Program-made: the position numbers and the translations under genes
Source of the DNA: Chloroflexota bacterium
GTDB lineage: Bacteria; Chloroflexota; UBA6077; CF-72
Assembly: GCA_016191465.1 (NCBI GenBank)
Contig: JACPOP010000001.1
Location: forward strand, 62,001-126,000
DNA: 64,000 nucleotides
Direction: 5' to 3'
In this document: one piece after another, positions 8,541 to 56,076 of the stretch
Position numbering within the stretch: the stretch's first letter is position 1
How the letters are laid out: each line of letters begins with the position of its first letter
The notes under the pieces: model-generated
Seen by the model: the letters and a program-made list of their open reading frames with translations, nothing else
Database searches by the model: none
What the model was told of the DNA's origin: nothing

Positions 8541-8742
8541 GAACCCGCGGCGAAGCCGGCCGGGCTCCTCGCCCGCCACGCGCATTACGCGCGGGGTGCC
8601 GTGCCGGCCGTGCATCATTCCAGGAACCGGGGACCGGTGGCTGGCGTCCCGCTGGGACCGACAACCGCGGGCGGACCTTCGCACGCCGTGCCGGAGCAGG
8701 AATTCGCGCACCAATTCGCGGGTTGTGGTATCCAGAAGAGCT

Positions 8743-9108
8743 ATGAGCACGCTGACATTGACTGACGACGCGGTCGAGCGGTTACGCACCGTCCTGACCA
8801 GCCAGAACGTGCCCGAGGGCGCGCTCCGGGTATTTGTGACTCCCGGCGGCTGCTCCGGGTTCTCGTACGGGATGTCACTTGAAGCGGAGCCGGGCGAGGA
8901 CGACACCGTGGTCGAGCAGGACGGCGTGAAGGTCGTCGTCGACGCGTTCTCGCTGCAGCACCTCGAAGGCGCCCAGGTCGATTTTGTTGACAGCCTCATG
9001 GGCGGCGGCTTCACGGTGCTGAACCCGAACGCGGCCAAGAGCTGCGCCTGCGGCCAGAGCTTCGACACCGCCGATGCATCCGGCGCGCCAAAGCCCTGCC
9101 ACACGTAG
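8743..9108 (+). CDS. erpA: A-type iron-sulfur carrier (IscA/ErpA family)
   Basis: A 121-residue HesB/IscA-fold protein that delivers Fe-S clusters to apoproteins. It contains the family signature with three cluster-ligating cysteines: GGCSGFSYG (Cys at about residue 36) and the C-terminal SCACGQSF. The region FVDSLMGGGFTVLNPNA matches the conserved strand before the CxC. It has a short extension after the CxC ending in CHT. The start ATG 8743 is preceded by AGAAGAG and, 8 nt away, by TATCCA. It stands alone, without isc or suf genes. Confidence 0.88.
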   Translation: MSTLTLTDDAVERLRTVLTSQNVPEGALRVFVTPGGCSGFSYGMSLEAEPGEDDTVVEQDGVKVVVDAFSLQHLEGAQVDFVDSLMGGGFTVLNPNAAKSCACGQSFDTADASGAPKPCHT

Positions 9109-9191
9109 GCGCGTCACCCGTCACACGGCTTCATCGGGTCGTGATGCTGAACGCGGTGAAGCATCTGCCGCGGTCCTACCACGATGGACTG

Positions 9192-12184: not shown

Positions 12185-13201
12185 CTACTGGTACTCCACT
12201 TCCGAGCGCCCGTAGCGCTGGCTTATCAACGACGCGACAAGGACGATCCCAAACAGTACGAAGCTCATCGCCGCGGCATAGCCCATGTCGAACGACTTGA
12301 ACGCGGCGTTGTAAATCTGCTGGACCAGCGTGGTGGTGGCGTTCGCCGGTCCGCCGCCGGTCATGACGTACACCTGGTCGAACACCTGGAAGGCGCCGAT
12401 GAGGGAGGTCACGAAGATGAAGAACGTGGTGGGCGCCAGGAGCGGGACCGTGAGCTTGCGCAACTGCTGCCAGCCATTCGCGCCATCGATGCGAGCAGCC
12501 TCGTACAGGGAGTCGGGGACGCCCTGGAGGCCCGCCAGGTAGATGAGCATGTTCCAGCCCAGCACCTTCCAGACGCTGACCGCGATGATGCTCGGCATGG
12601 CGAGCGCGGGGTCGCCGAGGAAATCGACTCCCCGCAGGCCGATCGCTTCCAGGCCCTGGCTGGCGACCCCGTACAGCGGGTCGAAGAGCTGGATCCAGAT
12701 CATGCTGACCGCCACCATGGAGCTGACGACCGGCACGTAATAGGCGGTCCGGTAGAACCCGAGACCCTTCATCTGGCGGTTCATCAGCAGCGCCAGTCCG
12801 AGCCCGAGCAGCATCCCGATGGGGATGCTGAACGCGGTGTAGACAAGAGTGTTCTGCAAGGCTCGCCAGAACAGCTCGTCCTCGAACACCGCCTGGTAGT
12901 TGGAGAGACCGACCCAATCCTGGCGCGTGAAGACGTCGTAATTCGTGAAGCTGAGATAGGCCGCGTACAGCACCGGCAACAGCGTGAAGACGGCGAAAAT
13001 CGCCGTGGCCGGGGCCACGAACAGGTAGCCCGCCACGGCCTGCTGCCGCTCTTGCGAGTAGCTCGGTCGCGGGACGGGCGCCGGCGCATCGGTACGGCGT
13101 TGGCCCGGGAACGGCAGCACCCGACCCTCGGCGGCCGCCGCCGAGCCCCACGGTGGTCCCTGTTCTGAGGGCGCTACTGCCATGACGACACGCTCGCCCA
13201 C
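12185..13201 (-). CDS. Carbohydrate ABC transporter permease (UgpA/LacF type)
   Basis: A 338-residue inner-membrane permease, partner of the downstream MalG-like protein. It has a long Pro/Arg-rich cytoplasmic N-terminus (about 55 residues), then six membrane helices beginning at AGYLFVAPATAIFAVFTLLP. The EAA loop is YEAARIDGANGWQQ. The GGPANATTTLVQQIYN stretch is characteristic of the MalF/UgpA side of sugar importers. An in-frame ATG at 13183 is an alternative start. The binding-protein gene lies upstream on the same strand, 348 bp away, with repeat elements in the gap. Confidence 0.87.
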   Translation of the reverse strand: MGERVVMAVAPSEQGPPWGSAAAAEGRVLPFPGQRRTDAPAPVPRPSYSQERQQAVAGYLFVAPATAIFAVFTLLPVLYAAYLSFTNYDVFTRQDWVGLSNYQAVFEDELFWRALQNTLVYTAFSIPIGMLLGLGLALLMNRQMKGLGFYRTAYYVPVVSSMVAVSMIWIQLFDPLYGVASQGLEAIGLRGVDFLGDPALAMPSIIAVSVWKVLGWNMLIYLAGLQGVPDSLYEAARIDGANGWQQLRKLTVPLLAPTTFFIFVTSLIGAFQVFDQVYVMTGGGPANATTTLVQQIYNAAFKSFDMGYAAAMSFVLFGIVLVASLISQRYGRSEVEYQ

Positions 13202-13225
13202 CGCGGGGACAATCCGAGGCCGGCT

Positions 13226-13379
13226 GTCATCCTGAGGGCCCAGCCGAAGGATCGGTATTGCCGAGTTTGAAGTTCAACGTTCTCAGTAACGCGTGGTCTG
13301 GTAAGCCCCGTGTCCGGAGCACCGACCACTGACAACTGACCACTCGCTGAGACGGATCCTTCGCTCCGCTCAGAATGAC
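13226..13379. repeat. Small inverted-repeat element, copy 2
   Basis: The left end GTCATCCTGAGG followed by GCCGAAGGATC, and the right end GGATCCTTCGCTCCGCTC followed by AGAATGAC, form terminal inverted repeats of about 25 bp with few mismatches. The interior of about 100 bp contains CCACTGACAACTGACCAC and has no coding capacity. It lies between the binding-protein gene and the first permease gene. It is related to the element at 11104-11193. Confidence 0.6.
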
Positions 13380-13442
13380 ACTCGTCACCAACTCCTCCCG
13401 GTGCATATGGACGGTCGCTCCTGGGCCTGTCCGTCGTCATGC

Positions 13443-13499
13443 CTCAGCACGTGCCGTCAGTTCCGCGAAACCGTGCCAAACGTGTGTACAGGTGCTCAG
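13443..13499. repeat. Dispersed CTCAGCACGTG repeat, copy A
   Basis: About 57 bp that begin CTCAGCACGTGCCGTCAG and end GTGCTCAG, an imperfect palindrome with the core GTTCCGCGAAAC. Similar sequences occur at 48385-48443 and 50828-50886. It lies just after the binding-protein gene, so it could act as a terminator or RNA-stabilising hairpin. Confidence 0.45.
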
Positions 13500-13549
13500 G
13501 TATATCTCAAGATTCAGCACGAGGTGCCGAGCTCACCGCGCTCACGCGC

Positions 13550-15061
13550 TCAACGCTTGAGGGCTCGGTCGATCTGCTTGGCCGCATCGTCGAGTGCCTG
13601 CTTCGAAGTCTTCTTGCCGTACACCGCATCGTCAACAGCGTTCTTCATGATCGTCTGGTACACCTCCAGCGCGGCGGGAGTGGTGGAGATGGACTTGCCG
13701 TATTGCTCCATGATCCCGACGAACTGCTGGAGCTGCGGGTCCGCCATGTAACCGGCTGTGCGCAGCGACTTGCGGGGCGGGATGAAGTACATGGTCTCGT
13801 TGTACTTGAGCAGGTTGTCCTTCTCGGCGATGTACGAGACGAACTTCCAGGCGGCGTCGGCGTTCTTGGATTGCTTCGAAATCGCCAGCCAGTCCGTCCA
13901 GTTCGTGGTTGCCTGGACCTTCCTGCGGGTCGGGTCCGCAATCACCAGGTCGGCGGCGCCCTGGGGGTTGTTGGTGCGGAAATCGCGCACGGTGAGCTGG
14001 TTCCCGAGCTGCATCGCCACCAGGTTTGCGGCCATGGCACCGACGTTGGCGGTGGGTGCGGCAATCGAGCTCCGGCTGGCTACGCGGTTGTCGCCGTTGA
14101 ACAGGCTCGCGAAGTAATCCATCGCCTCGACCGCCTCGGGGCTATTCACCACCACCTTGCCGTCCTGGGTGAACACGTCGCCGCCGTTCTGGAAGAGGAA
14201 CCACACGTACTGCTGCCAGGTGGGCTTGGCGTTGAAGCCCACCACCTGGAACTTGTCCCCGTCGCGCTTCGTGGTCCTCAGCGCGGCGGCCGTGAGCTCC
14301 TCCCAGGTGGTCGGAGTGCCCATGACACCCGCCTGTGTCAGCATGTCCTTGCGCAACATGAGCGTCTGCGGTGCGCTCAGCACCGGAATGCCCCACGTTT
14401 TGTTCTGGTAGGTAACGGTGCTCCACGCAGACGGATAGAAGTCATCCTTCTGGCCCCAGGCGTCCACGTACTTCGCGAGGTCGAGCGCCATACCCTTGCT
14501 GGCGAGCGGCGCCACGTACTCGGCGCCTGCCTGGAACACGTCAGGCAGCACGCCGCCCGCGTTGGCTGCGACCAGCTTTTCGCTGAAGACACGCCAGTCC
14601 AGGTACTGGATATTCACGGCCACGTCTGGGTTCGCCGCCTCGAACGCGGGCACGAGCTCGTCGTTGAAGAGCCTCTGCGTGCCCTGCTCCCAGTCCGTCA
14701 GCCAGATCTCCAGGGTGACCGGCCGCCCGGTGCTCTTCGAGCGCGCCACAACCGGCGCGGCGGGAGCATCCCCCGCCCGTGGATCGACGTCCCCACCCGC
14801 CTGTGAGGAGCCCGGACCAGAGGGCGCAGCCGGAGCTCCGGCCGGTGCGGCCGGCTGGCCGGGTTTGCTGGCGGGGGCGGTCGGCTGCGCGGGTCCGGCC
14901 GGCGCCGCGCTCGTGGCGGCAGGCTGCTGCGCAGCGGCTCCACCCCCGGAGGACGGCGCGGAGCACGCCACGAGCGCGGCCGCGAGCAGCGCCGGGAATA
15001 TCCGGGCGGCGGAATGCGGCAACGGTGGTGTTCGAAATCGCAGCAGGCGGCCTCGCAACAT
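13550..15061 (-). CDS. Sugar ABC transporter substrate-binding lipoprotein
   Basis: A 503-residue family 1 extracellular solute-binding protein. The signal sequence ends in a lipobox (LLAAALVACS, Cys at about 33). A low-complexity Ala/Pro/Gly/Gln linker of about 70 residues follows. The mature domain starts near VTLEIWLTDWEQGTQ and contains motifs of the sugar-binding family (FEAANPDVAVNIQYLDW, KLVAANAGGVLPDVFQ). GGGAGGA at about 12 nt upstream serves as ribosome site. It is the first gene of the importer cluster with the two permeases. The nearby GH3 N-acetylhexosaminidase suggests an amino-sugar ligand; this is only an inference from context. Confidence 0.88.
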   Translation of the reverse strand: MLRGRLLRFRTPPLPHSAARIFPALLAAALVACSAPSSGGGAAAQQPAATSAAPAGPAQPTAPASKPGQPAAPAGAPAAPSGPGSSQAGGDVDPRAGDAPAAPVVARSKSTGRPVTLEIWLTDWEQGTQRLFNDELVPAFEAANPDVAVNIQYLDWRVFSEKLVAANAGGVLPDVFQAGAEYVAPLASKGMALDLAKYVDAWGQKDDFYPSAWSTVTYQNKTWGIPVLSAPQTLMLRKDMLTQAGVMGTPTTWEELTAAALRTTKRDGDKFQVVGFNAKPTWQQYVWFLFQNGGDVFTQDGKVVVNSPEAVEAMDYFASLFNGDNRVASRSSIAAPTANVGAMAANLVAMQLGNQLTVRDFRTNNPQGAADLVIADPTRRKVQATTNWTDWLAISKQSKNADAAWKFVSYIAEKDNLLKYNETMYFIPPRKSLRTAGYMADPQLQQFVGIMEQYGKSISTTPAALEVYQTIMKNAVDDAVYGKKTSKQALDDAAKQIDRALKR

Positions 15062-15526
15062 GTCGGGCAGTCCTCCCTTAACTCAAAGCCGTGGGACGGG
15101 TCAGGCGGGCGGCCAGGCTCACGGGGCCGCGCTTCTGGAAGACGGGAGCCCCGGAATCGTTATAGCCGTGTCCCCGACGCACCGCCAAAATGCGCGCGCG
15201 GCACCGGGAGTCGTTTCCCGTCCTGCTCGCGCCATGCCAACAGGAGACCGCATGACCCGTACCCAGCCAGAGGGCCGGACGCGTCCGGAGGAATGCGAGC
15301 TGTCTCGTCCGGTGCACCGCGGCGCTCGCCCTCACTCCGTTCTTCCACGGCGTAGCCGCTGCCGCGGAACGAGACGTCTCGCCGACGGGCGACCTCCTGG
15401 CGCGTCCCGTAACACTGGGAGAACGAACGCCGAGCGTGGCAGCGCGCCGAAAGCCGCGTGATTTGGTTGGAATGCTGGACAGAACGGGCTAGAAAGCGGA
15501 AGGTAGAGAGAGGAAGGGGCGCCGCC
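15062..15526. promoter_or_regulatory. Divergent intergenic region of 465 bp
   Basis: Separates the binding-protein gene (leftward) from the lytic transglycosylase gene (rightward), so it must hold promoters for both. TATAAC on the minus strand about 100 bp before the binding-protein ATG is a possible -10. GAGAGGAAGG just before 15527 is the ribosome site of the rightward gene. Open frames inside show no recognisable protein. Confidence 0.35.
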
Positions 15527-17902
15527 GTGACCCGCAATCTACACCGCTCGCTCAGCGTTCCCGCATTCGCTGCGCTGCTGCTCGCCACGGGCGTCGCGTG
15601 TCAACCAGCCACGCCGCCCGCTTCCGCGCCCGCCGCGCCCGCGCCGACCTCGGCGGCGCCCGCGGCCGCGCAGCAGACGCAGAGCGCCCCCGCCGCGCCG
15701 GCCGCTCAGCCGGTCCAGACCTCAGCACCCGCGGCACCCGCCGCCGCGCCCACACGCATCGCCCCGGCAGCGCCCACCTCGACGCCCTCGCCTCTGCTGG
15801 CGTTGACCCCTCCCCAGCGAGCCGCCGCCGCCGAAGGCCAGCGCGCTCTGGCCGCCGGCGATTACACCCGGGCGGTGGACGTGCTTCGTCCCCTGGCCGG
15901 CCAGGTGGTCGCCGGCGCCGCGCGCACCGAGGTCCAACTGCTCCTCGCCCAGGCGCAGGTTGGCGCTCGGGCCTACGACGACGCGCTCACGACCGCGCAG
16001 GCGCTCGGCTCGGCCGATCCCGCGGCAAGGCTCGTCAAGGGCCAGGCACTGCGCGGCCTGAAGCGCTGGGACGAGGCAGCCGTGGAGATGCGCGCCGCGG
16101 CCGATGCCGAGCCGCGAGTCGACGCGGCAGTGCGCTTGCAACTGGCCGAGATGTGGCTCGGCGCTGGCAAGCCCGACCAGGCCGCGGCTGATGCGCGGAA
16201 AGGCGTTGATGGCACAGAAACTCGGCTGTTGAAGATCGACCTGGCCGAGAGGCTCGCAAGCACAGAAGTCGCGCAGCGGAACACCGATGCGGCGATGGAA
16301 GCCTACCGCCAGCTCCTCACCGCTGCCGGCAGCAAGGGCTTTCTCGGCGAGCAGCTCTACAACCTCGGACTCGGCGCAAATCAGCTCGGCAAGAAGGACG
16401 AGGCGATCCGCGCCCTCCGCACGTCGATCTCGGACTTCCCCCGCTCGCGCAAGGCGCCGGACGCCGTCAACCTGCTGGAGAGCATTGGCGGCATGCGTCC
16501 GGAGGACCGCTTCTATTCGGGCGTGATCCGCTACTACTTCTGGGAGTTCAAGAAGGCCCGCGCCGATTTCGATGCCTACCTGGCCGCCTTCCCCGACGGC
16601 GACCGCGCCGTCGAGGCGCGCTACTATCGCGGCCTTTCGTCGCTCCCCGCGGACACGACCGAACAGCTCCTGAAACTCGCAGACCAATTTCCGGACGACG
16701 AGTTTGCACCGCTGGCCTTGCTCGAGGCGGGCAAGGCCCAGGAGGAGCTGGAGAAATACGACTCCGCCGAGGCGATCTACGCGCGCCTCATTGCCACGTT
16801 TCCCACCCGCGACGCGGGGCTCGCGGGTACCTTTCGGCGAGGCCTCTCCCGGCTGATGCAGAAGGACACCGCTGGCGCCCTGGCCATCTGGGACGGATTG
16901 GCGCAGAAGGACGTGGAACCAGCGCTCAAGGCGCAGTCGCTGTACTGGGCGGGCAAGGCGCTCGCCACGAGAGGCGACACCGCGGGCGCTCGGGCTCGCT
17001 GGCAGGCAGCGTCCAACGTGCGGCCCGTGGATTACTACGTGGTGCGGGCCCTGGCGGAGCTGAACCCCCCGCCGCCGACCGCGGACTTCAACCCGGCCTC
17101 GGCAGCGCCGGCGGACGAGGCGGCCCTGGGCGCGTGGTTTGCCGAACGGAAGATTGACCTGGCCTCCGCCAGCCGCGAGGCAGCCGCCCAGCCAGCGTAC
17201 GATCGCGCGGCGACCCTCGTGCGGTACGGCCTGTACCGCGAAGCGAACTGGGAGTACGAGGGGTTCCTCACCCAGTACGTGGATAAGCCGGCTCAGCTGT
17301 ACTGGCTCGCCGCCCGCTTCGGCGACCTCGGGCTGCCAAATGCCCAGCTCAAGCTCGGCACAGCCGCGCTCGCGGCGGCCACCGCCGAGGGCCAGGTCAG
17401 CGTCCTGGACGTGCCGAAGGCGCTCCAGCGGGTGGCGTTTCCCCTTGCATTCCCAGACATGGTGACCGGTGTGGCGAAGCAGAATGGGCTTGACCCGTTG
17501 CTCTTCGAGGGCCTGATCCGCCAGGAGAGCGATTTCGACCCGTACGCGGAGTCTGTGGTGAAGGCCAAAGGACTCTCCCAGATCATGCCCGACACCACAG
17601 GACCCGAGATCGCGGGCAAGCTGGGGGTGAAGGACTACTCTCCCGAATCGCTCTTCGAGGCGAAGCGGAACGTGCAGTTCGGCGCCTTCTATTTCGCGGA
17701 ACGGCTCAAGCGGAACGGCCGCGTTCCCCAGAAGGCGCTGGCCGCCTACAACGCCGGCGATGGCAACGTGGACAACTGGACCGGCGCCGGCCGCGAGGAC
17801 CCGGACGTTTTCGCGGAGTACATCGCCTTCTTCGAAACCCATGATTACGTCCAGCGCATCTACACCTACTGGACCCTGAACCGCTACATCTGGGGCGGCT
17901 AA
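15527..17902 (+). CDS. slt: Soluble lytic murein transglycosylase (Slt-like) lipoprotein
   Basis: A 791-residue exported enzyme that cleaves peptidoglycan with formation of 1,6-anhydromuramic acid. A signal peptide with lipobox (LLLATGVAC) precedes a long Ala/Pro/Thr linker. The middle (about 100-640) is a helical superhelix of TPR-like repeats. The C-terminal SLT domain has the catalytic Glu in IRQESDFDP, then GLSQIMPDT and AYNAGDGN. The protein ends TYWTLNRYIWGG. GTG 15527 was chosen because GAGAGGAAGG precedes it and the signal peptide follows. The last 38 coding bases are repeated exactly at 22263-22300, marking this gene as the probable integration site of the downstream island. Confidence 0.9.
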   Translation: MTRNLHRSLSVPAFAALLLATGVACQPATPPASAPAAPAPTSAAPAAAQQTQSAPAAPAAQPVQTSAPAAPAAAPTRIAPAAPTSTPSPLLALTPPQRAAAAEGQRALAAGDYTRAVDVLRPLAGQVVAGAARTEVQLLLAQAQVGARAYDDALTTAQALGSADPAARLVKGQALRGLKRWDEAAVEMRAAADAEPRVDAAVRLQLAEMWLGAGKPDQAAADARKGVDGTETRLLKIDLAERLASTEVAQRNTDAAMEAYRQLLTAAGSKGFLGEQLYNLGLGANQLGKKDEAIRALRTSISDFPRSRKAPDAVNLLESIGGMRPEDRFYSGVIRYYFWEFKKARADFDAYLAAFPDGDRAVEARYYRGLSSLPADTTEQLLKLADQFPDDEFAPLALLEAGKAQEELEKYDSAEAIYARLIATFPTRDAGLAGTFRRGLSRLMQKDTAGALAIWDGLAQKDVEPALKAQSLYWAGKALATRGDTAGARARWQAASNVRPVDYYVVRALAELNPPPPTADFNPASAAPADEAALGAWFAERKIDLASASREAAAQPAYDRAATLVRYGLYREANWEYEGFLTQYVDKPAQLYWLAARFGDLGLPNAQLKLGTAALAAATAEGQVSVLDVPKALQRVAFPLAFPDMVTGVAKQNGLDPLLFEGLIRQESDFDPYAESVVKAKGLSQIMPDTTGPEIAGKLGVKDYSPESLFEAKRNVQFGAFYFAERLKRNGRVPQKALAAYNAGDGNVDNWTGAGREDPDVFAEYIAFFETHDYVQRIYTYWTLNRYIWGG
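17863..17900 (+). repeat. Left copy of a 38-bp direct repeat (slt 3-prime end)
   Basis: The final 38 bases before the slt stop are identical to 22263-22300, exactly 4400 bp further on. Here the stop is TAA; in the right copy the reading frame would end in TGA. The repeats bracket a restriction-modification and toxin-antitoxin block. I read them as attachment-site-like ends. Confidence 0.85.
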
Positions 17903-17984
17903 CGCCCGCCCAGGGGGCTGAGCTCCAGCACAGTCACCAGGGACTCTGGGAGCTGCGTGCTTCCGAAGTTCAGCGGCCCCAAGA

Positions 17985-18253
17985 TCACCGCCGGTCAGCA
18001 GAGACGCGCGTATGGGTGGAGCGGCGGCTCCCGTACAGGCGAGTGCGCCGAGCTTCCGCCTCGAGCCCCCCGACCTCCGCCTCCCGGAACCGCTGGGCAA
18101 ACGCCGCGTCCAGCTCCTGCCAGAGGTACACCGAGTTCCCGCACACCCGGCCTCGCGAGCCGCCCCCGTGACGTTGCCCAGCTTGGCAAACGCCGCCGGG
18201 AAGCGCGCCTTCAACGCATCCGTCTTCCCTTCGCTCCGTGCCACCGTCCACAA
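17985..18253 (-). pseudogene. Frameshifted remnant of a helix-turn-helix (terminase-small-subunit-like) gene
   Basis: Two overlapping minus-strand frames together spell a typical helix-turn-helix protein. One reads RFPAAFAKLGNVTGAAREAG; the next frame continues CGNSVYLWQELDAAFAQRF and then REAEVGGLEAEARR. This pattern (GNVTxAARxAG followed by VYxWxExDxxFxxxF and LEAEARR) is common in phage terminase small subunits and related DNA-binding proteins. Neither frame has the whole domain, so at least one indel is required. It sits just inside the left repeat, next to the methyltransferase gene. Confidence 0.5.
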
Positions 18254-18345
18254 TGCCCGGCGGCGCGCGTTAGTGCCTAACGAGCTTTCCGAACGCCTCT
18301 GCTCCGACGGCGCTTCACCTCGCCGGCGAGCGCTGGGCCAGGCGC

Positions 18346-19479
18346 TCAGGCAGTGCTCAGCAGCGGGAGCTGGAACAGCCCGTCATCGGGTGCCCCGAGC
18401 TCCTCCCCATTCATCTGCGCTCGGATGGCCGACGCCACCGCCTGAGCGAGCGGCGGTGGCACCGAGTTCCCCACCTGGAGCTGGATGCTCCGTCGTGAGC
18501 CAGCAAGCTCATAGGCGTCTGGAAACCCTTGCAGCCGACGTAGCTCCGGGACACGCAGGCGACGGTTCTCCCAGTGGAACGGCCCTACATACGGCCCCGG
18601 TTGTCCCTGAATCGTGCTCGCCGGCCGCTCCGGGTCCAGCTTCAGCAGGAACGTCCAATAGCGCGTCCGCCACTCGAAGAGCGGTTGGGGATGCCCTTCG
18701 TGGGCCGTGTAGTGCAGGTAGTTCTTCCCCGGCGGGATCTCGGGCAGGAGGTGGCCGTACTTCCCATTTACGCCCTCATCCGGTTCGGGAACGGTCTCGA
18801 GCCCGTCCAGCACCTGTCCCGCGGTCACGTGCGCCAGCAGTCGTTCCGCCCCGCTTGGCCGCACTCTGCGTTCAAGATCACCCCAATGCGTCGACTCGGG
18901 CAGGCGGAGCTTATGTCCGTCGCTTCGACCGATCACGAAGAGGCGCTGGCGATTCTGTGGCACCCCGAAATCGGCCGCATTCAAAACCCCATGCTGCACC
19001 GAGTATCCAAGCTGGCGCATACCCCTCAGCAGCCGGTTGAACGGCAACTCTGATTGGTTTCTATAGGCCAGCCCAAAGACGTTCTCCATCAAGAATGCCT
19101 TCGGTCGGATGCTGGCCAGGAACCGAAGGTAGTCGTCGAGCAAGCCAGCCTTCGGGTCTTTGCCTTCTCGCTTGTACTCGAGGTGAAACCCCGACTTCGA
19201 GAACGCCACGCACGGTGGCCCCCCCACCAGGAGATCCACCGCCCCTGGCTCGAGCCCAAGGTCCGAGAGCACCTCATTCGGGTCGAGCGTCGTGATGTCT
19301 GCCGGCGCCACCTCGCCGAGGTCCGGGAAGAAGCGTGCCCGGTTCTGGTTCAGCGTCTCCACAGCCATGGGGTCGTGCTCGATGGCCCGGACCACGCGAA
19401 ACCCCGCCGCTTCCACGCCCAGGTCCAGGCCGCCGGCACCCGAGAATAGGCTGATCGCCAGGGGCTGGCTCAGGCTCAT
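18346..19479 (-). CDS. DNA (cytosine-5) methyltransferase of a type II R-M system
   Basis: A 377-residue m5C methyltransferase. Motif I FSGAGGLDLG (12-21) binds AdoMet. Motif IV GGPPCVAFS has the catalytic Cys at about 90. Motif VI is MENV (Glu about 132), motif VIII QNRQR (about 175-179), and motif X GNSVPPPLA (about 343). It should protect the host from the SacI-like endonuclease two genes upstream, so GAGCTC is the predicted target by analogy. It is the last gene of the R-Vsr-M operon, 10 bp after the Vsr stop, with start ATG at 19479. Confidence 0.92.
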   Translation of the reverse strand: MSLSQPLAISLFSGAGGLDLGVEAAGFRVVRAIEHDPMAVETLNQNRARFFPDLGEVAPADITTLDPNEVLSDLGLEPGAVDLLVGGPPCVAFSKSGFHLEYKREGKDPKAGLLDDYLRFLASIRPKAFLMENVFGLAYRNQSELPFNRLLRGMRQLGYSVQHGVLNAADFGVPQNRQRLFVIGRSDGHKLRLPESTHWGDLERRVRPSGAERLLAHVTAGQVLDGLETVPEPDEGVNGKYGHLLPEIPPGKNYLHYTAHEGHPQPLFEWRTRYWTFLLKLDPERPASTIQGQPGPYVGPFHWENRRLRVPELRRLQGFPDAYELAGSRRSIQLQVGNSVPPPLAQAVASAIRAQMNGEELGAPDDGLFQLPLLSTA

Positions 19480-19489
19480 AGCTCACACA

Positions 19490-19963
19490 TTACGACAGAA
19501 CAGGTGTTCCATCAACCCCGTCCTGCTCGACCGGCGTTGCCTGTGATGCCCGCGTAAGCCCCGCGACGAGCGTGGCGGCCTCATCCGGGGGCACGTGCTC
19601 CCAGACCCGAACCACCGTCCAGCCCGCGGCCTCGAGCACGGCGTTCACCCGCCCATCCCGCGCCACGTTCCGCGCCAGCTTCGGGCCCCAGTACTCCGTG
19701 TTCACCCGAGGCTGCACGCCGTGCTCCGGGCAGGCGTGCCAGTAGCACCCGTCCACGAACACCGCGAGCTTGCGGCGGGTGAATACCAGGTCCGGCCGGA
19801 CGCGGAGGTCACCCAGCACCAGGGTCAGGCTCGTCCGATAGCGCAGACCCAGCCCGTGCACACGTGATCGAACCGCCCGCTCTGGGCGCGTCTCGTGCTT
19901 CCGATTGCGCCGCATGGCCGCGCTGACCGCCGGGCTGGAAGGCAGCGGATATGGCGCTTTCAC
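19490..19963 (-). CDS. vsr: Very short patch repair endonuclease (Vsr family)
   Basis: A 157-residue nuclease that nicks 5-prime to the T of T:G mismatches formed by deamination of 5-methylcytosine, so it limits mutation at sites modified by its partner methyltransferase. Visible features are RPDLVF with the catalytic Asp (about 58), then FVDGCYWHACPEH (about 69-81) with the zinc/active-site residues, and NTEYWGPKLARNVARD. The start is GTG at 19963, overlapping the restriction gene stop by 3 nt (GTGA), so the two are translationally coupled. The C-terminal 30 residues beyond the fold are unconserved in appearance. Confidence 0.9.
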   Translation of the reverse strand: MKAPYPLPSSPAVSAAMRRNRKHETRPERAVRSRVHGLGLRYRTSLTLVLGDLRVRPDLVFTRRKLAVFVDGCYWHACPEHGVQPRVNTEYWGPKLARNVARDGRVNAVLEAAGWTVVRVWEHVPPDEAATLVAGLTRASQATPVEQDGVDGTPVLS

Positions 19964-21057
19964 TCCGACACGCCAGTCTCCAGGCTCTCAAGGTCCTGGG
20001 CGAACAAGGCACCCCAGGCCTCGACGCTCGACGGCCGCACCTCCAGCTCCGCCAGTCGCCCCGCGACCAGTTGAGGGAATGCCTCGAGACATTCTTCGAG
20101 GGGGCGACCAGACCAGGTGAATGCGGCCCGCAGCAAGCTGCCGGTCCCCACCATCACGGCCAGGTGAACGCCGTGACGATCCCAGCTCTCGGCTTTGAGT
20201 ACGGTGAGATCCATTTCGGTCCGGCTCAGCGCCAGCAGCACCACGATGGCTCGCCGCACGTCGCTGGACGCGAGCTTCTCCACGAATTGCAGAATCTCTG
20301 TCTCGGTGGTCTCCCGCTGCTTCACCTCGACGGAGGTGATGGGCCGCTCGCCAGTGGACACGATCACGTCGCCCGGAATGTGGCGGCTTGGATCGTTCAC
20401 CCGGCCGGTCTGAACCTCCGCAAACACCAGGTCGAACGCGGCGGCCGTGAGCGCTTGGCCACGCTTACCCCCCTCGGGATCGGCATGGAGAAAGCGTTCC
20501 GCCACCGAGATCAGCTCAGCCATCGGGAGCCCGCCCGAGACAGCCATCGGGACGCCGTGCCCAGGCCCATCCTGCAGGCGTGCTCGAAGAAACGCCGCGA
20601 GCGCGCCTTCCGCTTCCACCCGTGAGAGCGCATCGACAGCATCCAGACAATCCACCAGGTAGGCCAGGTGGGGACGAACGTGGGGATGCACCGCCATAGC
20701 ATTCGACACGCTGTCGTAGCGGAAGAATGGCTGATTATTGAGCGGCTCTCGGCCGGTGGTCCCCAGGTGCACCCGGTGCCGGACTGCCCTGGTCACCAGC
20801 ACGGCCATGCACAGGCTCCGTGCCGAATAGGCACGCTCGCTGAAGCGCACCTTCAGCGCATGAGAATCGATTCGGGCGTCGGTCGCCTTGGCCAGCAACG
20901 CCGTGCCGAGCATCGCGACGAAGGTCTTGTTGGGTGCCGTGGCGACGGCACGCGCGCGGTCAAGCCATTCCTCAGCTACGGGGAGCTCCGAAACCGCGGT
21001 GGCGAGGGCCGAGTCAAACGCCACCCCAGCCTGCGCAAAATCCAGCTTGATCGCCAC
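19960..21057 (-). CDS. Type II restriction endonuclease, SacI family
   Basis: A 365-residue protein that resembles SacI-type endonucleases (GAGCTC) as I remember the family: an N-terminal NKTFVAMLGTALLAKATDA block, YSARSLCMAVLV, and GREPLNNQPFFRYD (about 103-116). A PD-(D/E)xK-like core is visible as PGDVIVS...ITSVEVKQRE near residue 240, giving the likely metal ligands Asp and Glu-Val-Lys. Start GTG at 21057. It is the first gene of the R-Vsr-M operon, which is an unusual order for safe establishment in a new host. GAGCTC sites occur in this window, so the sequence is not strongly depleted. Confidence 0.8.
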   Translation of the reverse strand: MAIKLDFAQAGVAFDSALATAVSELPVAEEWLDRARAVATAPNKTFVAMLGTALLAKATDARIDSHALKVRFSERAYSARSLCMAVLVTRAVRHRVHLGTTGREPLNNQPFFRYDSVSNAMAVHPHVRPHLAYLVDCLDAVDALSRVEAEGALAAFLRARLQDGPGHGVPMAVSGGLPMAELISVAERFLHADPEGGKRGQALTAAAFDLVFAEVQTGRVNDPSRHIPGDVIVSTGERPITSVEVKQRETTETEILQFVEKLASSDVRRAIVVLLALSRTEMDLTVLKAESWDRHGVHLAVMVGTGSLLRAAFTWSGRPLEECLEAFPQLVAGRLAELEVRPSSVEAWGALFAQDLESLETGVSE

Positions 21058-21503
21058 TCAGCCCAACGGTACCAAGCGAAAGGGCGCGCGTGTGAGGAAG
21101 ACCGCCGGCGGAAGCACGTCTCGTGCAGTCTATCGCGCGGACGCCCTCTCTTGGTTCCGGATCCCTCGGCTACGGGCCCGTGAAAAGGACCCACGGCCTG
21201 CGCGTGGGCGCTGTATCGGGACGATTGCCCTGACGCCCGAAGGATCTACCCTTCCCGGCGAGACGAGCAAAGGGACCTTCCGCGAGCAGCTCGCCGGGCT
21301 TGGCTGGCGCGGTGACGAACGACAATCGGGAAGGCTCTGGCACGAATTTCGATACTGCTGGCGAATTCCCGTCTCCGCCCCGCCGCGAGATTGATGACGG
21401 CCGCTGCGATCACGCGACCGGATCCAACACCAAGGCCGAACCGGCATGTCGGCAACATTCGCCAGCAGTATCATTCCGTGCCAGAGGCATAGAGAGAGTT
21501 GTG
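21058..21503. other. Control region between the R-M operon and the toxin-antitoxin pair
   Basis: About 450 bp between the restriction gene start (leftward) and the vapB operator (rightward). It must contain the promoter of the R-M operon, but I cannot point to one. The open frames on either strand look random, and I see no controller (C) protein gene. Confidence 0.35.
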
Positions 21504-21519
21504 TCACGCGTGATACACT
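21504..21519 (+). promoter_or_regulatory. Operator-like palindrome and -10 of the vapBC pair
   Basis: TCACGCGTGA (21504-21513) is a perfect 10-bp palindrome directly followed by TACACT (21514-21519), a -10-like hexamer 7 nt before the GTG start. A palindrome touching the -10 is the usual arrangement for autorepression of a toxin-antitoxin operon. Confidence 0.45.
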
Positions 21520-21526
21520 GCCATTC

Positions 21527-21769
21527 GTGACTGAGGCCGAGGTCAGTGTCCGCGATCTCCGCCATCACGGCGGTGAGGTGCTTGACCAGGTGGCTCGGGG
21601 CCGGCCCGTCACCGTTACACGCGACGGTAAGCCGGTCGCCATCCTGCAGCCGTACGTCCACGCCTGCGTCTCGGCCGAAACGCTCCTGGCGCGATGGCGC
21701 CACCTCCCGCACATGGACCCGCGGGCCTGGCGGCGTGACGTCGGCGATCTCCTCGACAGCCGCCTCTGA
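21527..21769 (+). CDS. Antitoxin of the Phd/YefM (prevent-host-death) type
   Basis: An 80-residue antitoxin starting at GTG 21527. The N-terminal two thirds match the Phd/YefM pattern: EVSVRDLRHHGGEVLDQVARGRP, then VTVTRDGKPVAILQP. The C-terminal tail (HMDPRAWRRDVGDLLDSRL) should wrap around the toxin. Together with the downstream PIN-domain toxin it forms a VapBC-type module inside the 38-bp-repeat-bounded island. It is probably autoregulatory through the palindrome at 21504. Confidence 0.82.
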   Translation: MTEAEVSVRDLRHHGGEVLDQVARGRPVTVTRDGKPVAILQPYVHACVSAETLLARWRHLPHMDPRAWRRDVGDLLDSRL

Positions 21770-21793
21770 TCGGCTCGGATTGGATCGAGACGG

Positions 21794-22219
21794 ATGCCGT
21801 CTGCGCGCCGGGCCCGCGGCCTGCTCGACACCTCCACGGTGATCCTGTTACCACGGCTCGCCGATCCGCGACGGCTTCCACCGGAGCCCCTGATCAGTGC
21901 CGTGACGCTGGCAGAACTCTCCGTCGGGCCGCTCGTCGCTCGCACAGCGGACGAGCGCGCCGCGCGCCAGGCGCACGTGCAGCAAGCGGAGAGTGATTTC
22001 GACCCGCTCCCTTTCGACGCGGCCGCTGCCCGGGCTTTCGGCCAGGTTGCCGCGTCCCTGCGCCGGCACGGGCGAAAGGTCCAGGCACGTGCCTACGACG
22101 CCATGATTGCCGCGACCGCCCTGGCGAATGGACTGCCGGTCTACACGTGCAATCCAGAGGACTTCGCCGGCATCGACGGCCTGACCGTAGTGGCTGTTCC
22201 TCACCCGGACGCCTCCTGA
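21794..22219 (+). CDS. vapC: PIN-domain toxin (VapC family ribonuclease)
   Basis: A 141-residue PIN-domain RNase. The acidic metal-binding residues are present: Asp12 (LLDTSTVI), Glu41 (LAELSVG), Asp102 (AYDAMIAATA) and Asp123 (NPEDF). VapC toxins cut tRNA or rRNA when the labile antitoxin is lost. The gene begins 24 nt after the antitoxin stop. Its end lies only about 45 bp before the right 38-bp repeat, so the pair is the outermost gene set on that side of the island and may stabilise it. Confidence 0.88.
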   Translation: MPSARRARGLLDTSTVILLPRLADPRRLPPEPLISAVTLAELSVGPLVARTADERAARQAHVQQAESDFDPLPFDAAAARAFGQVAASLRRHGRKVQARAYDAMIAATALANGLPVYTCNPEDFAGIDGLTVVAVPHPDAS

Positions 22220-22262
22220 AGGGCGCCTGGAGAGGCTCCTACGCCGGGAGCGACGCCCCCTC

Positions 22263-22300
22263 CACCTACTGGACCCTGAACCGCTACATCTGGGGCGGCT
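22263..22300 (+). repeat. Right copy of the 38-bp direct repeat
   Basis: Identical to 17863-17900. In the plus orientation it would encode the end of the lytic transglycosylase, TYWTLNRYIWGG, then TGA. No transglycosylase sequence precedes it here; similarity ends abruptly a few bases upstream. Its last 17 bases are also the 3-prime end of the minus-strand NlpC/P60 gene. Confidence 0.85.
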
Positions 22301-22745
22301 GATACTCCTCGCCGACGGGCTGCTGGTGCGCACGGCGCTCGGGTCCAGGGCGTCGAATCTCGCACGGGTATTGGAGGATTGGGTGTTCGCCCACGCCGCC
22401 GTGGCTGAAGCTGGCATCGAGCATTGAGCTGCTGTCGAGCCATAGGCCAACGTGGGGGTACACCACGCCCGGCTGAGTGGGGTCCTCGTAGCGGTACAGG
22501 ATCAGATCACCAGGCTGAGCGAGTAATGGATCGATGGTCTCTGTCTCGTTGGCGATGTCGTCGGTGAACGGGGTGAGGGCGACGCCGACCTGCGCATAGG
22601 CGGCCGAGACCAGCGAGGAGCAATCCCAGCCGTCGCCGAACCGGCCGATCGTCGTTCCGCTCAGCGGCCCCCCGTACGGCTTGCCAATCTGCTGGTGGGC
22701 AAACCCCAGGACCGCCGCGCGGTCCGCGTCACTGAGCGTCCGCAC
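22284..22745 (-). CDS. NlpC/P60 family cell-wall hydrolase
   Basis: A 153-residue single-domain NlpC/P60 protein, a papain-like peptidase that usually cuts D-Glu-DAP bonds in peptidoglycan stems. The catalytic Cys is in GDGWDCSSL (Cys42), and the His is in VYPHVGLWLD (about 98). There is no clear signal peptide; an upstream in-frame TAG leaves GTG 22745 as the start. The last residues (QPPQM) are encoded by the antisense of the 38-bp repeat, so the C-terminus may have been altered when the island inserted. Before insertion this gene would have been convergent with the slt gene. Confidence 0.8.
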   Translation of the reverse strand: MRTLSDADRAAVLGFAHQQIGKPYGGPLSGTTIGRFGDGWDCSSLVSAAYAQVGVALTPFTDDIANETETIDPLLAQPGDLILYRYEDPTQPGVVYPHVGLWLDSSSMLDASFSHGGVGEHPILQYPCEIRRPGPERRAHQQPVGEEYQPPQM

Positions 22746-38767: not shown

Positions 38768-39466
38768 TCACCGCAGCGGATCGTCGACGGACACCCGCGG
38801 CGCCTCGTCCATCACCCGCCAGCCCTGGAGGCTGCCCACGGACACCAGGTGGCGCACGTCGGCGTACTCTTCCAGTTGCAACCCCTCGGCTGCTGTCCAG
38901 GTGAGCCGCGAGATCTGGCAGTTCTCCAGGCGCCCTTCCTTCAGCCACAGCGCTTCGACAGGTCGGCCCATGGCCAGGCTGAGCACGCACTGCGCGGTTG
39001 CGCCATGGGTGACAACGGAAACTACCTGACCGACGTGTCGCGGCATCATCTCGTCGAAGAACGCCTGGCAGCGTGCCCGGACCTCGGCGAGGCTCTCGCC
39101 CTCGGGCAAACGCACCGTCCAGGGACGGTCCCGCCAGGCGGCGACCTGCTCCGGACACACGCTCGTCAGGTCCGCGCCTAGCATCCCCGTCCAGGCCCCG
39201 CAATCGATCTCGCGAAGCCGGGCATCCTCGGTCACCGGGAGATGGTGACGTTCGGCGATGATCGCAGCAGTCTGACGCGCTCGCCCCAGGTCGCTACTGA
39301 ACACGGCCGCCAGGGGCACGTCACTCAGTGCTTCGGCGAGCACGTGCGCCTGTTGGCGGCCGCGCTCGGTCAGTGGCGAGTCCGACTGGCCCTGCCAGCG
39401 CCCCTCGACGTTCCAGGCGGTTTCGCCGTGGCGCGAGAGCAGCACCCGAACAGGTGTTCCAGTCAT
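38768..39466 (-). CDS. Histidine phosphatase family protein (phosphoglycerate mutase-like)
   Basis: A 232-residue enzyme of the branch 1 histidine phosphatase superfamily. The phosphohistidine motif is LSRHGETAWN (His about 13), the second Arg is in SSDLGRARQTA, Glu-Ile-Asp follows in LREIDCGAWTG, and the second catalytic His is in VVTHGATAQC (about 154). Relatives include alpha-ribazole phosphatase CobC, phosphoglycerate mutases and broad phosphatases; sequence alone does not decide. TATACT lies 7 nt before the ATG. Confidence 0.87.
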   Translation of the reverse strand: MTGTPVRVLLSRHGETAWNVEGRWQGQSDSPLTERGRQQAHVLAEALSDVPLAAVFSSDLGRARQTAAIIAERHHLPVTEDARLREIDCGAWTGMLGADLTSVCPEQVAAWRDRPWTVRLPEGESLAEVRARCQAFFDEMMPRHVGQVVSVVTHGATAQCVLSLAMGRPVEALWLKEGRLENCQISRLTWTAAEGLQLEEYADVRHLVSVGSLQGWRVMDEAPRVSVDDPLR

Positions 39467-54537: not shown

Positions 54538-54831
54538 TTAGCCCCGCTGCTCGTACCAGGCGTCCTCGACGAGGTCGTGGTAGATGGTGAGGGCGGCGCC
54601 GTCGGCGAGGACCAGGGTGAAGTAGAGGCGGGCAATGGGACGCTCGCGCCACCACTCGTCGTCGATGCGCCAGCGGTCCTGGACCGTGGCGACCTGGCGG
54701 GGACGTGGCCAGCCCTCGCGGCGAATGGCCTGGGGCGAGTCATCCGGAAGGGTGTCCACGGCAAGGCGGCGCGGGGCATTTAGAGGTCGCAGGTCACGAG
54801 CGCCCAGCGGCGTTCGGGGATGCGGGACCAC
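54538..54831 (-). CDS. DUF6504-like protein of the mutagenesis cassette
   Basis: A small protein, up to 97 residues, encoded directly after imuB. The core reads PRRLAVDTLPDDSPQAIRRE, VATVQDRWRIDDEWWRERPI and ARLYFTLVLADGAALTIYHD. This matches the pattern of DUF6504 proteins that accompany ImuB/DnaE2 in actinobacteria and Chloroflexota, as I recall them. The start is unclear: the only upstream ATG (54831) overlaps imuB by 52 bp, and a GTG at 54759 would cut the first strand. There is no recA-like imuA gene, so this protein may take an accessory place. Confidence 0.6.
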   Translation of the reverse strand: MVPHPRTPLGARDLRPLNAPRRLAVDTLPDDSPQAIRREGWPRPRQVATVQDRWRIDDEWWRERPIARLYFTLVLADGAALTIYHDLVEDAWYEQRG

Positions 54832-56036
54832 GGCTCGACCTCCCGGGCGTGATAGAGCGGCAGGCGGCCGCCGTAGCGGGCGCGGAGCAGGCGGCCCGCC
54901 TGCTTGATCGCCGGCATCTGACTGGCGCGCGCAGTGAAGAGCATGCCCTGCTGGGCGGCGTCACCCTGGAGCCCCAGCAGCTCCAGGAACAGCTCGTCCA
55001 CCGGCGCGGGCGGCAGGCCGTTCGGCAGGTCCAGTCGCGCCTTCAGCCCCAGCAGCGCCGCCGCGCGATCGGCGACGGGCACCTTGAAGGTGGAGAGGCG
55101 CTCCCAGGACGTATCGTCGGCGAGCAGCGCCCGGAGGCGAGCCTGGTGGACCGCGCGGCCGTGCAGCGCCGGATCGGCGAACGCCGCGATGAGCAGATGC
55201 TCCAGCGCGGCCTCGATGGCCTGGACGCTGGCAAGCGGGTCGTCCACGCGCAGGGAAACCCGCACCGACGTGCCGTAGCGGCGGGGCGTGATGGGCTCGT
55301 CGTCTCGGCCAGAGGCGAGCTTCCAGGCGCGGGCGCCGGTGGGGCCAAACTGGGCCTGGACGGCGCCAAAGGGCAGGCGCGCCAGATCGCCCACGGTCCG
55401 CAAGCCCAGGTACGTCAGACGCTGAAGGTCGTCCGGTCCGAAGGGCAGGTGCGCGATGGAGAGCGGGGCGAGGAAGCGCGCCGTCTCACGCTCGGGGACG
55501 ACGATGGACCGCTCGCCCGGGCCCGCGGTGCGGGCGGCTACCTCGGCGGCAAACTTCCCGGCCGCCAGGCCGATGCGCGGTCGCAGGAGCGGGGGCACCA
55601 TGGCCCGGATGGCGCGCTCGAGGGCCCGGAGGTCCTGCTCATACAGGCCAGCCAGACCGCGCAGGTCCAGGAACAGCGCCTCATCGGCGGCCTCCACCGC
55701 GGGACTGATGCGCTGAAGCCCGGCGAGCACCTCCTCCAGCGCGGAAGCAGTCCGGACCGGGTCGGGCTGGAGGACCACGGCGTCCCGAGCCAGGGCAACG
55801 ACTTCCCGCAGCGGAAGGCCCGGGACGATGCCGGCGCGCTCGGCCTCCGGCGAGCAGAGTCGAACCACCTTGCGTTCGCCAGGCCCGCCACCCAGGACCA
55901 GCGGCCGGCCGTCGAGCGCGGGCCGCCGCAAGACCTCGACGCGCAGAGGCAGTTGGGGCAGCCACACGCACGCAACGCGGACGTCTGCCCAGGCCGGCGG
56001 TGCGGCAACGAGGGTGCGGAGGCTGGAGAACCGCAT
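54780..56036 (-). CDS. imuB: ImuB, inactive Y-family polymerase of the SOS mutasome
   Basis: A 418-residue Y-family DNA polymerase homologue that links DnaE2 to the beta clamp in SOS mutagenesis. The N-terminal strand is VRVACVWLPQLPLRVEVLRR, where active Y-family polymerases have a catalytic Asp in DxDxFF; here the acidic residues are missing, as in ImuB. Further family blocks are LFLDLRGLAGLY, RIGLAAGKFAAEVAA, LPFGPDDLQRLTYLGLRTVG and GMLFTARASQMPAIKQAGRL. ATG 56036 was chosen: GGAGAG lies 6-11 nt before it, and the alternative ATG at 56060 falls inside the LexA box. Confidence 0.88.
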   Translation of the reverse strand: MRFSSLRTLVAAPPAWADVRVACVWLPQLPLRVEVLRRPALDGRPLVLGGGPGERKVVRLCSPEAERAGIVPGLPLREVVALARDAVVLQPDPVRTASALEEVLAGLQRISPAVEAADEALFLDLRGLAGLYEQDLRALERAIRAMVPPLLRPRIGLAAGKFAAEVAARTAGPGERSIVVPERETARFLAPLSIAHLPFGPDDLQRLTYLGLRTVGDLARLPFGAVQAQFGPTGARAWKLASGRDDEPITPRRYGTSVRVSLRVDDPLASVQAIEAALEHLLIAAFADPALHGRAVHQARLRALLADDTSWERLSTFKVPVADRAAALLGLKARLDLPNGLPPAPVDELFLELLGLQGDAAQQGMLFTARASQMPAIKQAGRLLRARYGGRLPLYHAREVEPWSRIPERRWALVTCDL

Positions 56037-56048
56037 GGCGCTCTCTCC

Positions 56049-56076
56049 AGCATAGAACATTTGTTCTATTCGTCAA
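56049..56076 (-). promoter_or_regulatory. SOS promoter of imuB with embedded LexA box
   Basis: On the minus strand TTGACG (56071-56076) and TATGCT (56049-56054) are separated by 16 bp. The palindrome TAGAACATTTGTTCTA (56053-56068, plus strand), of the form GAAC-N4-GTTC, fills the spacer and touches the -10. This is the LexA/DinR box type of Firmicutes, Actinobacteria and some Chloroflexota. LexA bound here would block the polymerase, so imuB and the following genes should be induced by DNA damage. Confidence 0.85.

Follow-up and report, generated by a model that had tools for sequence, protein, structure and literature searches.

A SacI-like R-vsr-M restriction island of a Chloroflexota bacterium with a candidate LexA-gated promoter for its methyltransferase

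The window analysed here is a stretch of 64,000 nt from a Chloroflexota bacterium (assembly GCA_016191465.1, contig JACPOP010000001.1, positions 62,001 to 126,000). On its minus strand lies a restriction-modification (RM) operon encoding a type II restriction endonuclease (R), a Vsr mismatch endonuclease and a DNA cytosine-5 methyltransferase (M), with the restriction gene first (Table 1). A sequence-only reading of this DNA had described a SacI-like R-vsr-M operon, and that observation is confirmed. R matches the Pfam family RE_SacI (PF09566) with E 3.6e-26 and 93.2 bits, against a cut-off of 19.3, so that it belongs to a recognised restriction family of the predicted kind, and the three open reading frames (ORFs) follow one another in the predicted order. 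R also matches PADLOC REase_II (E 3.2e-68) and, by sequence, the solved EcoT38I (7e8r; E 5.1e-5), with no match in NCBIfam at E 0.01. Its signature is PD-(D/E)XK-like and the catalytic D...(E)XK residues are present as PGDV...EVK, compared by eye with PGDV...EVR in the counterpart from Streptomyces achromogenes (L005), which we take to be the source species of SacI. As had also been predicted, Vsr (PF03852; TIGR00632, 133.5 bits against a cut-off of 97.85) adjoins a cytosine-5 methyltransferase (PF00145, E 2.4e-57). The latter carries FSGAGG, GGPPC, MENV, QNRQR and GNSVPP, motifs I, IV, VI, VIII and X of such enzymes. M and Vsr are the sole matches to PF00145 and PF03852 in their genome (2.15 Mb, 34 contigs, 78% complete). 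Below, this genome is G000, other genomes compared carry G-numbers (G001, G002, G003 and G092) and related loci carry L-numbers.

Table 1. Coordinates of the genes, candidate promoter elements and repeats in the window.
Feature	Position	Strand	Details
R, SacI-family type II restriction endonuclease	19960..21057	-	GTG start, 365 aa
vsr, T:G mismatch endonuclease	19490..19963	-	GTG start, 157 aa
M, DNA cytosine-5 methyltransferase	18346..19479	-	ATG start, 377 aa
Candidate -35 of M promoter	19510..19515	-	TTGATG, recognised by eye only
LexA-type box, M promoter spacer	19498..19509	-	GAACACCTGTTC (GAAC-N4-GTTC), inside vsr 3' coding end
Candidate -10 of M promoter	19487..19492	-	TAATGT, 7 nt before M ATG, leaderless geometry
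Candidate -10 before R	21066..21071	-	TACCGT, 8 nt before R GTG, leaderless geometry
Phd/YefM-type antitoxin, divergent from R	21446..21769	+	PF02604 E 1e-7, TIGR01552
PIN-domain (VapC-like) toxin	21794..22219	+	PF01850 E 2e-10
Left 41-nt direct repeat	17860..17900	+	3' end of transglycosylase gene 15458-17902
Right 41-nt direct repeat	22260..22300	+	overlaps 3' end of NlpC/P60 gene 22284-22745 (minus strand)

The overlap by which vsr was said to be coupled to R is present: GTGA at 19960-19963, read from the sequence, holds both the R stop and the vsr start. A gap of 10 bases (19480-19489) separates the vsr stop from the M start. Moreover, no controller or helix-turn-helix gene was recognised, in agreement with the sequence-only reading, when 30 further ORFs or pieces of at least 62 aa from the island that holds the operon (see below) were compared with Pfam at E 0.1, a scan outside which fell ORFs below 60 aa and one 80-aa ORF at the right edge (22201-22443, minus strand). 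Twenty-eight of the 30 had no match. The other two, reverse-frame ORFs in the toxin-antitoxin (TA) region, matched weakly (E 0.04 and 0.064) and far below cut-off, neither to a helix-turn-helix family, and were set aside as chance. The operon bears on a long-standing question, namely how M is kept ahead of the nuclease in type II systems without a controller protein.

The earlier interpretation, which is partly supported as a whole, was that on entry into a new host this order would yield nuclease before protection, unless an internal promoter served M or a controller existed. The R-first order stands. The worry itself is weakened, because the vsr/M junction holds a good candidate for just such a promoter, and it is probably answered by this candidate SOS-controlled M promoter, seen at two loci. 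On the minus strand, from 19515 to 19477, the junction reads TTGATG-GAACACCTGTTC-TGTCG-TAATGT-GTGAGCT-ATG, that is, a -35-like hexamer, a LexA-type box, a -10 and the M start, from which a leaderless M mRNA would arise. The R promoter region, whose -10 has a similar geometry, contains no exact LexA-type box. Support for leaderless starts comes from the genome at large: TANNNT stands 6-8 nt before 41 of 1296 candidate starts, M and R included, against 13.7 expected from gaps of 15-39 nt, an excess that we read as the mark of leaderless promoters.

The same arrangement recurs at a second locus, L002, where the junction reads TTGAGT-C-GAACAGGCGTTC-TCTGC-TAATGT-TCCTTTCA-ATG. Box, TAATGT -10 and near-equal spacing are shared, the gap from -10 to M start being 8 nt, and here the box follows the vsr stop. 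Since the box lies outside vsr coding in L002 and inside the last vsr codons in the window, and the Vsr C-termini are unalike, shared coding does not explain it. No exact box was found at M in any of the 15 other loci having M; in L014 and L018 boxes occur at other places, the closest being about 0.8 kb ahead of the M ORF of L018.

The box is of the type that precedes lexA in these organisms. It was found upstream of lexA in all five genomes examined (G000, G001, G002, G003 and G092), and its distance to the LexA domain, measured in all but G002, is 56-128 nt. In G000 this lexA is the sole gene matched by the LexA DNA-binding profile. At the candidate M promoter stands a box like that of the genome's own lexA, GAAC-N4-GTTC in both. 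Boxes also stand beside imuB-like (PF00817), uvrB (PF17757) and Rad52-like (PF04098) genes of G000, all with repair functions. With a scoring matrix built solely from the lexA sites of G001, G002, G003 and G092, the box at M reaches 17.86 and ranks 6 in 777,395 bases of G000, below lexA (22.7) and imuB-like (21.2) and above uvrB (16.5) and Rad52-like (14.1). Of the exact boxes, three lie in the window. In a separate observation, GAACATTTGTTC at 56055-56066 sits at the start of the Y-family (ImuB-like) polymerase gene 54780-56060 (minus strand), and this region is probably an SOS promoter.

We propose that M of this R-vsr-M island is expressed additionally from a LexA-gated leaderless promoter and that self-cleavage would thereby induce it; taken whole, we rate this slightly better than even. 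The upstream promoter would serve R and Vsr, whose synthesis would be translationally coupled, and basal M would come from read-through or from leak of the LexA-gated promoter. This second promoter, at the vsr/M junction, would supply extra M, and a LexA operator between its -35 and -10 would keep expression low in undamaged cells. The trigger would be R cutting under-methylated chromosomal sites, or repair synthesis exposing unmethylated ones. RecA-driven LexA cleavage would then release the promoter, M alone would rise and protection would be restored. For the idea at its core, that the protective M is alone in the operon in being under LexA control, so that double-strand breaks made by the system's own nuclease on under-methylated host DNA would switch on the antidote by way of the SOS response, we put the chance just short of even. 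Chromosome cleavage by other type II systems does induce SOS, according to the portion of an RM review consulted (PMC3874152). If the proposal is true, type II systems would have a counterpart of restriction alleviation that acts at the level of transcription. The host's sensor of DNA damage would double as a sensor of under-methylation, linking restriction, SOS and repair in one loop, and mitomycin C should induce M and not R.

A number of observations weigh against this proposal. A LexA-repressed M promoter by itself gives no protection before the first cut in a new host. The box at M occurs at two loci only. The -35 hexamer was chosen by eye, and at position 5 the M -10 carries G, which most of the -10s listed for the genome do not. 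In the window the box doubles as coding sequence, for GTPV of Vsr, and an identical 12-mer at about 39446-39448, at the start of another gene, also codes for GTPV. That site scores 17.59 and ranks 8, so that the matrix alone cannot separate it from the box at M, and a box of this type can arise by chance. Whole-genome counts (33 exact boxes against 22 of a reversed control) indicate that most boxes are background; many reading frames contain one, and others neighbour genes for which no SOS role is known (ornithine carbamoyltransferase, PspC, a metallo-beta-lactamase fold). The alignment of the 50 nt upstream of M in the window and L002 is only modestly unusual, since 162 of 20,000 shuffled sequences and 105 of 16,692 real regions attain its score. 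Two counts speak for the proposal. Of 561 predicted genes of the G000 sample, 2 carry an exact box in the 70 nt before their first start, M and the ornithine carbamoyltransferase gene; the imuB-like gene escapes this test, as its box contains the first in-frame start, and the sample does not cover the lexA, uvrB and Rad52-like genes. The complete geometry (box, then 2-9 nt, TANNNT, 5-9 nt and a start) has a single occurrence in 777 kb of G000, at M of the window, and a single one in the 333 kb of the 17 related loci, at M of L002, against a mean of 0.1 per 777 kb in 20 order-2 Markov simulations, although the pattern was drawn up when both loci were already known.

These points bear on the alternatives to different degrees. 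The junction might hold a constitutive M promoter, the palindrome being a coincidence of vsr coding with no link to SOS. We consider this unlikely. The leaderless -10 geometry and the coding 12-mer elsewhere would suit it, as would the R-first operons with internal M promoters known from EcoRI and Eco29kI (PMC3874152, in the portion consulted), but it leaves aside that L002 has the box at the corresponding position, there free of vsr coding, and that the box is of the same type as those upstream of lexA in both organisms. That recurrence, with the -10 and spacing alongside, likewise makes it improbable that no internal promoter exists and that a single R-vsr-M mRNA is made, protection on entry coming from slow or weak R synthesis (the GTG start) or from slow assembly of R relative to M. 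The 10-nt vsr/M gap and the GTGA overlap do suit one operon, and a promoter and terminator scan of 17800-22400 found nothing resembling the sigma-70 consensus (0.5 promoters expected by chance), which also counts against our proposal. However, the consensus was of E. coli type, which this organism need not follow, and the scan is hence uninformative here.

The palindrome could instead be an operator for some other repressor, such as the linked Phd-type antitoxin or M itself. RM and TA systems are often regulated by factors encoded next to them, as stated in the consulted portion of the review (PMC3874152), and a Phd antitoxin is present on the island. However, motif I of M starts at residue 12, leaving no N-terminal helix-turn-helix extension, and none of the exact boxes in the window falls in the TA promoter region. 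We therefore regard this as very improbable, and return to LexA control of M as the preferred explanation.

Compared with known systems, the window shares an RE_SacI-type endonuclease with the SacI locus of L005, whose M is 46% identical and closely similar in its target-recognition region. In contrast, L005 has M then R in tandem, as in 13 other loci, its R is 32% identical, and the locus lacks both a relative of vsr (at E 1e-5) and an exact LexA-type box. Au is said to have placed the Bacillus subtilis BsuM methylase genes ydiOP in the LexA regulon in 2005; if right, this would be a precedent for part of our claim. In EcoRI and Eco29kI, as far as the consulted portion of the review goes, R also precedes M and M can be expressed separately, from a promoter within the restriction gene, but reverse promoters and antisense RNA exert control (PMC3874152), whereas the candidate in the window is at the end of vsr, with a LexA-type operator and a leaderless start. 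Thus, R-first operons with an internal M promoter are already known, and the difference we propose is LexA as the regulator. In Caulobacter, vsrA has a LexA box inside its reading frame and a link to SOS, but in the available part of that paper it is unlinked to the methyltransferase scmA, and LexA is suspected of acting on vsrA elongation (PMC12907096); the box in the window precedes the methyltransferase of a complete RM operon. This is the nearest printed link between Vsr and LexA among the literature examined. EcoKI restriction alleviation resembles our proposal in that unmethylated sites arise through replication or repair and the cell must be kept from restricting its own DNA. It differs in being a Type I case, in which ClpXP degrades restriction complexes, and in not counting among the SOS functions, as far as the excerpt of PMC11109961 extends, whereas here M synthesis would rise transcriptionally.

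In the portion of the RM review consulted, LexA is mentioned only for TA systems (2 occurrences), and SOS is tied to type II RM only as an effect that restriction has (PMC3874152). No LexA-controlled type II methyltransferase was found among the matches listed, in open-licence literature at the level of titles and abstract openings. Novelty in print is not established, because it was judged from that material.

Gene order was compared in 17 SacI-family loci from named genome records, the M and R alignments omitting L016, where a SacI-family R was found without M. The order R-vsr-M occurs in one, L002, from a Dormibacter metagenome-assembled genome. M followed by R in tandem is the arrangement in 14 of the 17, among them L003, where vsr lies upstream on the opposite strand; in L004 R and M are divergent and vsr follows M. 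L002 is also the closest relative by sequence. M of the window is 70% identical to that of L002, 63% to L012, 55% to L004 and 45-49% to the other 13, and R is 47% identical to that of L002, 37% to L003 and L004 and 27-33% to the other 13. The R-vsr overlap appears to be conserved between the window and L002, since the latter overlaps too, by ATGA. By eye, from translations, the L002 operon lies between a helix-turn-helix-nucleotidyltransferase (TA-like) gene at 8666-9187 and an IS21-like istA/istB pair at 13011-14845. At L012:8633-11008, M is 63% and R just 31% identical to those of the window, unlike L002, and R and M may have been re-paired there.

In a search for further R-vsr-M loci, R was found in one of 61 genomes, its own, with no relative in G001 or the other 59 genomes searched. 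PF09566 occurs in 7 of 400 genomes across the phylum, six besides G000, and in 1 of 110 in the class of G092, namely G092 itself, which is taken as the genome of L002 and has R, Vsr and M. In the other five phylum matches (L104-L108), phmmer found no relative of M or Vsr in 10-kb stretches and, in four of the five, no match even for R at E 1e-3, so that these loci could not be used for gene order. Phages and viral contigs yielded no relatives of R, and plasmids a single distant SacI-family gene, in Halorussus, adjoining an adenine methylase.

The target-recognition region of M, around RWRSRYWTFLLKLDPDRPS..QAQPGPYVGPFHWEN, is closely similar in alignments of all 16 relatives, L005 included. This favours one specificity common to them, presumably GAGCTC or GRGCYC, and its conservation with the S. 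achromogenes homologue makes GAGCTC a plausible target of the window system. EcoT38I cleaves GRGCYC. GAGCTC is mildly under-represented in a 377-kb sample of G000 (186 against 268.3 expected, ratio 0.69) and less so in a 134-kb family sample (82 against 94.7, 0.87), counts that are no proof of the specificity of R or M. The most depleted palindrome, among those with at least 5 expected, is CAGCTG, with 4 against 31.6 in the window and 39 against 140.3 (0.28) in the G000 sample; its ratio in the family sample is 0.78, and CAGTTG is somewhat enriched (96 against 71.2). CAGCTG was considered as the true target of R and M and rejected on account of the target-recognition region conserved with L005, and its depletion points to a further restriction or methylation system that is, or once was, present.

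The sequence-only reading is extended by the LexA-type box, the second R-vsr-M locus and two features of the surroundings, the linked TA pair and the 41-nt repeats. The repeat copies agree at 40 of 41 positions, and between them lie the RM operon, the antitoxin and the toxin. At E 0.001 the genome yielded no copy beyond these two, and viral contigs contain no exact 27-mer of the repeat. The lytic transglycosylase homologues of G001 and G003 share the C-terminal end, and the 4.4-kb segment is probably an acquired island inserted at the 3' end of the lytic transglycosylase gene. No empty site was found, the nearest homologous gene, in G001, being 61% identical and too distant for alignment of the junctions. 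Neither the five named genes nor any of the 30 additional ORFs and pieces compared with Pfam was recognised as an integrase gene. RM genes are reported to insert with long target duplications, giving direct repeats longer than the usual insertion sequence (IS) duplications, as Nobusato is said to have described in 2000. The island resembles such insertions in having RM genes between direct repeats, here of 41 nt, but integration at attachment (att) sites, with the integrase lost or acting in trans, fits equally well.

Three smaller features were seen at the edges of the island. Minus-strand frame pieces at 17985-18253, left of M, looked by eye like frame-shifted helix-turn-helix or terminase (phage-like) sequence; they had no Pfam or PHROG match and were dropped. 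The NlpC/P60 gene terminates within the right repeat, so that its stop codon falls in transglycosylase-like sequence. Finally, a perfect 16-nt inverted repeat (21351-21366 and 21457-21472, with 90 nt between the arms) flanks the start of the Phd antitoxin ORF and is possibly an operator or an attachment remnant.

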